From NCBI RefSeq assembly GCF_051622035.1, contig NC_135361.1, positions 27,025,205 to 27,089,204 of the forward strand: DNA of 64,000 bases. The letters run 5' to 3'. A program made the translations under genes and the position numbers. The DNA comes from Arctopsyche grandis. Lineage: Eukaryota > Arthropoda > Insecta > Trichoptera > Hydropsychidae. The notes below the pieces were generated by a model. That model saw only the letters and a program-made list of their open reading frames with translations, searched no databases and was not told where the DNA came from. Shown here in pieces: positions 49,541 through 55,853 of the stretch (position 1 is its first letter; the number at the start of each line of letters is the position of its first letter).

Positions 49541-52500
49541 ATGTTGTTCAAATGTGTTTTAGTATTCGCATTCATTGGGCACATCAGTGAGTTTTATTTT
49601 ATTTAATTATAAATATCAAATAAAATTTATAATATATTAGAAAATAAATGTATGATATTTTAGTGGATTACTCAACATATTTATAAATCGAGTGTGATTC
49701 AAGAACATTAAAAGCTTCATAAAAACGGAAATAAAATAAGAAATCGCTAATATGCTTCGGAACTGAAAATATTGCTTAAAGTAAATGTGTGTAATATGTT
49801 ATAGGTGCTTGCCCCCATGGATGTGGAAAAAATGAAGTGTATTCAGAATGCACGGGGCATTGCGAAGGAACTTGCGACAACCCACATCCTGCGTGTCCTT
49901 ATATATGTCAATCAGGTTGTATTTGCAGACCAGGTTATTTGAGAAATACTGCAACGGGATTATGTGTTCCAGCAGACAGTTGTCCTTGTAGTATGTTTTT
50001 ATAGTTTTCTTTAACGTGTCTATTTTTTATACGTGCTCAATCTTTTATAATGTATAATAATTATTTATATATATATATATATATATATATATATATATAT
50101 ATATATATATATATATATATATATATATATATATATATATATATATATATATATATATATATATATATATATATATATATATATATATATATATATATAT
50201 ATATATATATATATATATATATATATATATATATATATATATGGAGTTCGGTCTTTCGTGTCATGCGGGGAAGACGTGCTTCTGCGTTCTTCCCGCTATT
50301 ACTCGCTTAAACCCGGCTATTGCACGAAATTTAATCTAAAAACTTAACCATCTAATCACTTATTTTACTAATTGCATCCTAGTATAATTTAAGTGTAAAA
50401 ATAAACAGCAAATCGGTCGTAAAAAGCGGTTTTATATCAGTTATTTCGAAAAATTTTGTGCTAATTTTTGTGTCAAATCTGAGCAAAAGAATATACGAAC
50501 GAGATACATCTCCTTACCTGAATACAAAAAAAGGGTCCTTCGACAGTCAAGTCGGTCCCACAGAAGCAATAAATCTTCCACATAATTGCTTCCAGCCAAA
50601 AATCTTTAACGAACTTTACTTAATAGAATAATAGCAAACAGAAACGGTGTTTCCCAACTGTCTATCAGTTCTTTTTCATATTTAAATTATATTAAAGTAA
50701 TTCGTGTAATTTTATATTCTTTACTAAAGTTATTATTAAAATATTAAATTGCAAACCGCACTCACATATATAAATCCGTTGTCTCCAAAGAGGCGTCTCA
50801 CGATAAAGATCTGTAAAAAAGTAGTATAACAATTGCTAATCTATTATTATCATAACTAACTACTTTCACTTACAAAGTAACCCTGTTAAATGGCATGTAA
50901 TAACTCATAAGTGATCCAAGTGATACCTAGAATGACTATCTGTCAAAGCTGACCACAGAGAAGAGTCTATGGCGGTAAGAACTCACTCCTTGAATGGAAA
51001 TCTCTCTCAAGTACCGCCTTTTTCTCAACACATCTTGGATAAATGCGAGAAAAATAATATCCAAACCTCCAACAAGGTAAGAGTGACGATGGATGATAGC
51101 TTAGCTAATAGAAACCTGTATTTAGCCACGTACAATGTAAGAACGTTATCGAGTGAAGGAAGTGTGCTTGCATTAGAGAATGAATTAGAAAATATCAAAT
51201 GGGATATAGTAGGACTTAGTGAAGTAAGACGAAAACAGCAAAACCAAATAATCCTAAAAAGTGGTAACTGTCTCTACTGGAGAGGGCTACCAAATGGTAG
51301 AATAGGAGGAGTAGGGTTTCTTATCAATAAGAGAATAGAAAGAAATATTATAGAAATAAGCGACATATCGGAACGTATATGCTATATAGTATTAAGAATC
51401 TCGAGCAGGTACACTTGTCAAATCTTCCAAGTGTACGCCCCCACATCTAGCCACCCAGACGAGGAAATAGAAGACTTCTACGAAAAAATACAGGACGCAT
51501 ACGATAATAGCCGTCACCACTTTAAAATAATCATGGGCGACTTTAACGCAAAAATAGGACAAAAGGCAAATACAGAAAGAGCAGTAGACAAAGAAACGAC
51601 AGAGGCGATCGCCTCATAGAATTCGCAGAACACAACAGGCTCTTTATCACTAATTCATTTTTCAGGAAAAACACCAACAATAAGTGGACTTGGGAGAGTC
51701 CTAAAGGAGACAGAAACGAGATCGATTTCATCCTAACAAATGCCCTGCACTCCGTTAAAGACGTTAGTGTTTTAAGTAAAGTAGATATAGGTAGCGATCA
51801 CAGATAAGTCCGTGCCAAGATGGCCATTAATATAAATTGCGAACGTAGGAAATTAATAAAAGGATGCAGTAACTCTCCAGATTTCGCTCAACTAAGGTCT
51901 AGGAAAAAGGAATTCGAACTCGAACTTGGAAATCGATACGGGAAATTTAACCCAGAAGCAGACATCGAGGAATTGAACACTGTAATTAGTTCGGTTCTAA
52001 CCTCAACAGGTAAGAAATTAGGTGGATTCAGGAAACAGATTAAATTAAGCAAAATTTCAGCGGAAACAAAAAACCTAACTAAGCATAAAAGGAATTTAGA
52101 TAGGGATAATAATAAGCAAGAATACAATCTAGTAAATAAGGAAATTAAAAAGAGAATAGTCAGGGATGTCAGGGATTTTAACAGCAAGCTAATAGAAAAT
52201 ACCATTAAGAATAACCGTAGCCTGAAAAAGTGCAAACAGGATCTTTTCTTAGGCAAAAACCAAATGATCGCAATCAGATCAGAGAGCGGAGTAATAATTA
52301 GGAATAGAGAAGAAATCATAGACAGAGTTTACACGTTCTATGCAAAACTATACGAGAACGACAACGGCCAATTCCCCGCTCTGGAATCGACACACGGCCA
52401 AAGGGTTCCTGCAGTATTGCCTAGCGAAGTAGAGGCCGCGCTAAAAACTGCAAAGAACGGTAAAACCCCAGGGGAAGATAATATTCCCATTGACTTACTA

Positions 52501-55500: not shown

Positions 55501-55853
55501 AATCAATGTGAATGTTCTTTTATTTTATGTTTTGGCCTAGATTTATAGTCGAATAATTTGTAATTTTAGAATGTGGAAAAAATGAACAGTACAAAGAATG
55601 CGGCACAGCTTGTCCAGACACGTGTGATAACTGGAGAACTCCGAGAGCGTGTATTCTACTTTGTGTTCCAGGATGTTTTTGCTTGCCGGGATACGTAAGA
55701 AACACAAAGACAAATGAATGCGTTCGTCCTTGTGAATGTCCATGTCGTAAGCGATATTTAATTCATAATCTTAATCACAAGTATTAATTTATATTTATAA
55801 ATGAAGAATAACATTTTATTTCTGTATTTACAGAGGAAATCGTACCATATTAA
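49541..55853 (+). CDS. TIL gene B: duplicate of gene A, exon 3 disabled
   Basis: Usable exons are 49,541-49,586, 49,805-49,990, 55,085-55,261, 55,570-55,746 and 55,834-55,853. They match gene A exons 1, 2, 4, 5 and 6 with all splice sites and phases kept. Joining them directly gives 201 aa: signal peptide (W5C relative to A) and three TIL domains. The exon 3 remnant (54,837-54,989) cannot be used as it stands. Because all introns are phase 1, skipping it keeps the frame across a 5.1 kb intron. Loops are CPYIC, CHTAC and CILLC; the last changes predicted P1 from Lys (gene A) to Leu, which would shift specificity from trypsin towards chymotrypsin or elastase. Expression is not known. Confidence 0.7.
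50067..50241. repeat. (TA)n microsatellite
   Basis: About 87 uninterrupted TA units between gene B intron 2 sequence and the 5' end of the RTE copy. Tyr-Ile ORFs on both strands are artefacts. Confidence 0.95.
50969..51803 (+). pseudogene. Endonuclease domain of RTE copy 2
   Basis: The first frame (to 51,619) has [25 protein letters not shown] and [12 protein letters not shown], the apurinic-endonuclease motifs that nick target DNA. It breaks at about 51,600. The next frame continues [20 protein letters not shown] to KVDIGSDHR and is then stopped by TAA where the family continues (SDHRLV). Confidence 0.8.
51820..53911 (+). pseudogene. Reverse transcriptase of RTE copy 2, one frameshift
   Basis: Open from 51,820 to 53,304 with the full RT core ([48 protein letters not shown]). 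A 1-bp insertion near 53,290 ends the frame early; copy 1 reads straight through there. The C-terminal part resumes at 53,357-53,911 ([21 protein letters not shown]). Confidence 0.85.
53950..54125. repeat. Foldback element with GCGAAGCC arms
   Basis: ACCCGGCTTCGCTCGGTATT...CATAAACATGACTAATC (53,955-54,003) is complementary to TTAGTCATGTTTAAGCG...CCGAGCGAAGCC (54,078-54,122), with an A/T-rich loop. Half copies occur at 7,313-7,371 and 29,665-29,735. Confidence 0.7.
54136..54413. other. Flank of hexamer array
   Basis: Not present in block A. It begins with a small ACGGGAACGGGAATTGCATG segment (54,187-54,207) that recurs at the far end of the array (about 54,788-54,808), so the array region may have duplicated its own edge. 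No gene. Confidence 0.45.
54414..54796. repeat. (GGGAAC)n hexamer array, about 63 copies
   Basis: A near-pure hexamer with edge variants (GAGAAC, GGGAAT). Each frame reads a dipeptide repeat: Asn-Gly and Thr-Gly on the + strand; Phe-Pro, Ser-Arg and Val-Pro on the - strand. None contains a stop, so long ORFs of up to 216 codons appear on both strands; these are composition artefacts. G3-N3 spacing is compatible with G-quadruplex formation. Confidence 0.95.
54837..54989 (+). pseudogene. Exon 3 remnant of gene B
   Basis: Compared with gene A exon 3 (35,626-35,802), the acceptor and first bases are replaced by the hexamer-flank sequence. A net 2-bp loss near 54,880 (GACACTGGTGGTACTTGC) shifts the frame to a stop. 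An 18-bp in-frame deletion removes the Cys9-side residues (CIPAEN). The donor GTATGT has become GAATGT. The remaining peptide still shows [18 protein letters not shown]. Confidence 0.85.

Follow-up and report, generated by a model that had tools for sequence, protein, structure and literature searches.

Exon Organization of Gene B and the Predicted Exon 2-Exon 4 Product

Gene B (49541-55853 of the window, the 64,000-nucleotide stretch of DNA analyzed here) is a tandem copy of gene A with the same six exon positions, the third of which is ruined. The question raised by this locus is whether the destruction of one exon has resulted in the loss of one protein domain or in the death of the gene. 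A previous sequence-only reading had favored domain loss. The answer we prefer, at a probability of about one half, is that B is an older tandem copy which lost exon 3 at a transposon block, that the rest of the gene was refreshed by gene conversion, and that a transcript, if one is made, would skip exon 3 and encode 201 amino acids.

Gene A is intact and, by exon-by-exon mapping, encodes 260 amino acids with four TIL domains in six exons (Table 1). The internal exons of A and B are multiples of three in length, and every intron is in phase 1. The domain model PF01826 matched four TIL stretches in A (160.8 bits, 8.1e-48) and three in B without exon 3 (130.1 bits, 3.1e-38), compared with a Pfam cut-off of 24.5. 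By this domain match A and B are TIL-domain inhibitors, with protease inhibition itself being predicted. Alignment of A and B reproduced every lesion described earlier for exon 3, namely the lost acceptor, a frameshift, an 18-nt deletion, and the change of the donor from GT to GA. The other five exons were found at the expected coordinates with GT and AG kept at their splice sites, and no stop codon, frameshift, or splice-site loss was detected in any of them. Joining exon 2 to exon 4, in phase 1 on both sides, yields an open frame of 201 amino acids with three TIL domains, as had been claimed. Outside exon 3, A has 33 Cys positions, each of which is Cys in B and in a third copy, C, as well. 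By eye, the proximal upstream region of B, including a TATA-like stretch, shows no change relative to the other copies.

The loss of both splice sites commonly leads to exon skipping. Both sites are likewise lost in B, where skipping is predicted from sequence alone. Neither the exon 2 donor nor the exon 4 acceptor is changed. Skipping would be the simplest outcome and, for a transcribed B, the likeliest. Among the genome places listed there was no spliced retrocopy of the exon 2-exon 4 product; the matches longer than 80 codons were all at most 48% identical (150 of 299 candidates scored).

Table 1. Features of gene B, the DNA inserted into it, and the comparison gene A
Feature	Position	Strand	Remark
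Gene A, comparison copy	35092..36666	+	Signal-peptide-like start and four TIL domains
Gene A exons	35092-35137, 35356-35541, 35626-35802, 35898-36074, 36383-36559, 36647-36666	+	
B 5' flank	49228..49509	.	12/282 aligned sites B-only versus A=C, last at 49449
Flank end, leader, exon 1, intron 1, and exon 2 start of B	49450..49845	+	Longest run without a B-only site, 396 aligned sites, p 0.009
B exon 1, start codon	49541..49586	+	Ends in phase 1
B exon 2, TIL domain 1	49805..49990	+	Donor A/GTATGT intact; read-through gives a stop after SMFL
(TA)n microsatellite, ~90 units	50062..50242	.	Absent here in A and C
Non-LTR retrotransposon (LINE)	50243..53930	+	Endonuclease PF03372, reverse transcriptase (RT) PF00078; full 5' end; same strand as B; frames broken
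Non-autonomous interspersed element	53941..54837	+	(GGGAAC)n array 54414-54796; 3' end clipped in B
Exon 3 relic	54837..54989	+	No acceptor; 2 nt and 18 nt lost; donor changed to GA; 9/153 ungapped sites B-only
Possible in-frame pseudo-exon within relic	54843..54932	+	Acceptor 3.03, donor -2.11, approximate matrix
B exon 4, TIL domain	55085..55261	+	Acceptor TCTCGTAG intact
B exon 5, TIL domain	55570..55746	+	Predicted P1 Leu
B exon 6	55834..55853	+	End of QEIVPY and stop

Composition of the Inserted Block

Where A has 17 bp comprising the acceptor and the four initial nucleotides of exon 3 (35613-35629), B has 4775 bp (50062-54836). Sequence shared with A ends at 50061 of B before the block and resumes at 54837, in exon 3. 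The earlier description of a 4.8-kb insertion was correct in that 4775 bp of foreign DNA are present, but they did not arrive as a single insertion. At least three pieces of different age make up the block: the (TA)n repeat, a LINE that is young, and a non-autonomous element that is older.

The first 658 bases of the LINE are 99-100% identical at no fewer than 39 other places (40 of 836 first-look candidates scored). All six copies fetched were flanked by TA runs on both sides, one of them with a short right run only; in the copy of B, the right-hand TA run is missing. Since 6/6 fetched copies sit in TA runs, the LINE seems to favor (TA)n, and TA-microsatellite targeting is possible for this LINE family with its Exo_endo_phos endonuclease. 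Private substitutions of the LINE in B, counted in ungapped columns with one copy differing, amounted to 19/3535 sites (0.54%) against four of the six fetched copies, the two with large gaps being omitted. A second LINE piece in the window (23260-25096), inverted and 5'-truncated, is 98.9% identical to the first over 1838 bases.

Copies of the older element have the ends ACTAGC..GCTAGT and a hairpin, and the element in B carries an internal (GGGAAC)n array; the ends are possibly Helentron/HINE-like. Its private changes in B were 9/417 (2.2%), based on 6 of 10 fetched copies and on ungapped columns with one copy differing only. In B, the element runs to GGGTTCA, where it meets the exon 3 relic with an overlap of CA. 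Nine of the ten fetched copies continue with GCTAGT at this point, and in the tenth the match stops earlier. Because the clipped end coincides with the site of the lost acceptor, the acceptor was probably lost by a small deletion there or by imprecise insertion of the element. A single LINE insertion as the cause of exon 3 loss was rejected, since the lost acceptor lies at the clipped end of the other element and the LINE is too young.

Divergence among the Three Copies

A search of the 475.7-Mb genome yielded one more close copy among the matches listed. This paralog, C (C7:27019558-27021134), is intact, encodes 260 amino acids, and ends 4.1 kb to the left of the window. With C at hand, many of the A/B differences on which the sequence-only reading had relied turned out to be changes in A. 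Compared with A and C, B differs by 4-6% in the outer flanks and exon 3 and by ~1% in exons 1-2 and 4-6 with their introns. Sites at which B alone differs (a class that takes in the A/C stem, as no close outgroup roots the copies) made up 12/282 in the 5' flank, 9/153 in exon 3, and 6/134 in the distal 3' flank. All other segments together gave 15/1600, with 4/684 in introns 1, 2 (head), 4, and 5. For 27/569 in the outer flanks plus exon 3 versus 15/1600, the Fisher test gave 1.9e-7 with segments grouped after inspection of the data; the dispersion of B-only sites, which requires no grouping, gave p 0.0002 (5000 shuffles). Gapped columns were dropped from the three-copy counts, 20 of them in exon 3. 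At one exon 3 residue (S/P), the state in B is that of 5/6 other domains compared (including two domain sequences of other loci).

Ectopic conversion between tandem paralogs can be interrupted by a non-homologous insertion. The same kind of mosaic, low in tracts and high elsewhere, is present here, in this case as a three-way mosaic. On the sequence evidence it is best explained by ectopic gene conversion among A, B, and C that spared the walled-off exon; local differences in mutation rate or a chimeric assembly are possible causes. Sites private to A, at which B and C agree, were clustered as well (dispersion p <0.0002) and concentrated in the leader with intron 1 and in exons 3-4, so that conversion among the three copies would have been complex. 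Most of A's own changes lie at 35635-35991 (A exons 3-4), where they are clustered and mostly nonsynonymous, as if a different tract had been kept or received.

The relative divergences were then compared in pairs. Exon 3 (9/153) exceeded the LINE (19/3535; p 1e-6) and the older element (9/417; p 0.032), and did not differ from the 5' flank of B (p 0.49). The older element in turn exceeded the LINE (p 0.0016), and no difference was detected between the introns of B and the LINE (p 0.78). Exon 3 thus seems to have diverged to the age of the duplication, and the LINE seems about as young as the last conversion. With a divergence far below that of exon 3, the LINE is probably not what destroyed the exon. 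As exon 3 exceeds the older element too, some of its changes may be earlier than the loss of the acceptor, and the order of the lesions given below is provisional.

According to the history we propose, B would be an older tandem copy of a gene for a secreted protease inhibitor with four TIL domains. Transposons and the TA repeat would have piled up in its intron 2, and the older non-autonomous element would have cost exon 3 its acceptor, either because its 3' end suffered a small deletion or because it inserted imprecisely. Exon 3 would then have decayed by the 2-nt loss, the 18-nt loss, and the loss of the donor. Ectopic conversion with A/C may have refreshed the promoter-proximal part with exons 1-2, and also exons 4-6, and would have missed exon 3 beside the non-homologous block. 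The LINE, found in (TA)n runs, would be the youngest part of the block. If B is transcribed, the mRNA would join exon 2 to exon 4 over 5.1 kb and encode a three-domain inhibitor of 201 amino acids with a predicted Leu at P1 of the last loop. A bolder proposal, which we regard as doubtful, is that the block walled off one exon from conversion and left it to decay, that neighboring copies repair the rest, and that a dying four-domain copy thereby became an expressed and stable inhibitor of three domains, with Leu as a P1 residue of its own.

Sequence Constraint on Gene B

The alternative that survives best is that B is a pseudogene, in which exon 3 is dead, any transcript is non-functional, and the other exons look healthy through recent conversion with A/C. 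We consider this possible, if somewhat unlikely. The mosaic divergence is in its favor, as is the pattern of substitutions. When changes outside exon 3 were assigned to the individual copies, A had 1 synonymous and 10 nonsynonymous changes, B had 1 and 5, and C had 1 and 3; codon 91 has a different form in each copy, and how it divides into synonymous and nonsynonymous changes depends on the path assumed. The residue changes of B itself are at positions 30, 91, 145, 166, and 195. With 5 nonsynonymous changes and 1 synonymous change, no constraint on B was visible outside exon 3, which also counts against our preferred reading. An omega of 0.1 fits B poorly (p 0.008) and an omega of 0.2 gives 0.06, while neutrality and diversifying change both fit. 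The intact gene A looks like B in this respect, and substitution counts cannot tell whether B is alive or dead.

The direct dN/dS comparison of the exons of A and B gave Sd 1.5 and Nd 15.5. It was set aside as evidence on B because C placed 10 of the nonsynonymous changes on A; the B branch by itself fits neutrality, and the result is not decisive given the counts for A. Taken by itself, this comparison had suggested fast evolution of B.

Five exons without a stop, frameshift, splice-site loss, or loss of a domain Cys argue against a pseudogene, as does the unchanged proximal upstream region with its TATA-like stretch. The weight of the first argument can be estimated. A neutral copy would carry no stop, start, splice, or frame lesion after six coding changes in ~21-36% of cases (indel rates assumed), which speaks for the pseudogene. 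If the loss of a Cys is counted as a lesion too, six substitutions alone would spare the gene with a probability of 0.30, before indels are considered, which speaks against it. Moreover, the five exons were probably refreshed by recent copying, so their intactness is weak evidence for function. The earlier conclusion that exon 3 destruction meant domain loss rather than gene death therefore holds in one respect, as in-frame skipping is the simplest outcome, but its argument from five intact exons is weak given the conversion mosaic. An apparently dead member of the same cluster, consisting of TIL gene pieces with stops, lies at 11040-11416 and adds to the case for a pseudogene.

Reactive Loops and Predicted Specificity

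Alignment with 1CCV places Lys (A), Leu (B), and Gln (C) at the predicted P1 of the last domain. We take 1CCV to be the honeybee chymotrypsin inhibitor AMCI, presumably with Met at P1. Reactive loops of such inhibitors are often hypervariable. Among A, B, and C, 5/13 variable residues fall within P1 ± 3, where 15/145 non-Cys domain sites lie (p 0.005; p 0.0009-0.0047 across the four window widths tried). None of the 32 domain Cys varies among the three copies (P 0.075 by chance). Only residue 166 among B's own five changes is at a P1 site, and residue 195, changed from Y to C, introduces an additional Cys just past the last domain that is not present in A or C. Positive selection on B was rejected as the reason for the divergence of exons 4 and 5, since the clustering in the loops spans three copies and B adds one loop change. 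P1 influences the specificity of TIL inhibitors according to two reports (PMC10004685, PMC3278429). As P1 differs among the copies, they may differ in their targets.

Alternative Transcripts of Gene B

Two other products would result from different processing of the 5.1-kb intron between 49990 and 55085. In one, the altered exon 3 would be spliced in through cryptic sites and add a non-canonical, Cys-poor segment, which we judge improbable. The relic frame is open from the AG at 54841-54842, since the 2-nt loss compensates for the offset at the 5' end. The acceptor at 54843 outscores 4/5 true acceptors of A and that at 54873 outscores 5/5, and five acceptor-donor pairs above the score cut-offs leave an open frame down to the native stop; 54843-54932 is the longest of them. 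These competing acceptors, together with the four AATAAA signals in the intron, also weigh against our preferred reading. The scores come from an approximate matrix, under which weaker donors fell below the cut-off. Relic donors that match the native donor of exon 2 in score would cost the protein most of the domain, and the others score lower. A complete Cys set would also be missing from the product: the in-frame 18-nt loss removes one Cys codon, and the Cys pattern of the relic is partly lost. At 54371-55036, one frame reads the (GGGAAC)n array as (Arg-Glu)n and stays open through the second half of the relic.

The other product, a short one-domain inhibitor from unspliced exon 2 that stops after SMFL and uses a poly(A) signal in the inserted DNA, is hardly to be expected even though the read-through would give 81 amino acids comprising the N-terminal leader plus a complete TIL domain and AATAAA occurs at 50400 and 50568, since intact A has the same read-through stop, so that nothing would be new in B, and the exon 2 donor is unchanged.

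Relation to Known Systems and the TIL Gene Cluster

TIL inhibitors such as 1CCV and the silkworm SPI tandem clusters (PMC3278429) share with the present genes the domain model, the Cys pattern, the arrangement in tandem clusters, and the variability of P1. In contrast to these, the present genes have four domains on four symmetric phase-1 exons, with B short of one. Loss or gain of phase 1-1 exons changes the domains of modular extracellular proteins by exon shuffling. Loss of a symmetric exon keeps the frame open in both situations; in B, however, the exon persists as a relic, and the loss would act at the level of splicing. No like case was found among the matches listed in the open literature on TIL exons and their duplication, on LINEs that target TA, on domain loss accompanying splice-site loss, or on the evolution of P1 and reactive sites; for LINEs at TA repeats no paper was listed at all. 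The case is ordinary in kind, and the interplay of transposons and gene conversion is its interesting aspect. It illustrates how little the intactness of exons in a tandem copy says about function once conversion has come to light through a third copy. It is also a specific example of mobile DNA possibly determining which exon in a modular gene stays repairable. Expression of B would make it a young instance, open to dating, of a domain lost through skipping.

More TIL exons are present in the window at 19381-19656, 21913-22185, and 26502-27725. Similar exons occur outside the window at C7:27089309-27094767, which suggests a block duplication. Units of 307 bp form a satellite array at 38010-43394 (17.5 copies, 97% matches). 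Several TIL genes were also located at C8:25.06-25.11 Mb. These have multiple domains per open frame, the longer frames reaching 356-492 codons, and contrast with the one-domain-per-exon genes of the present cluster.
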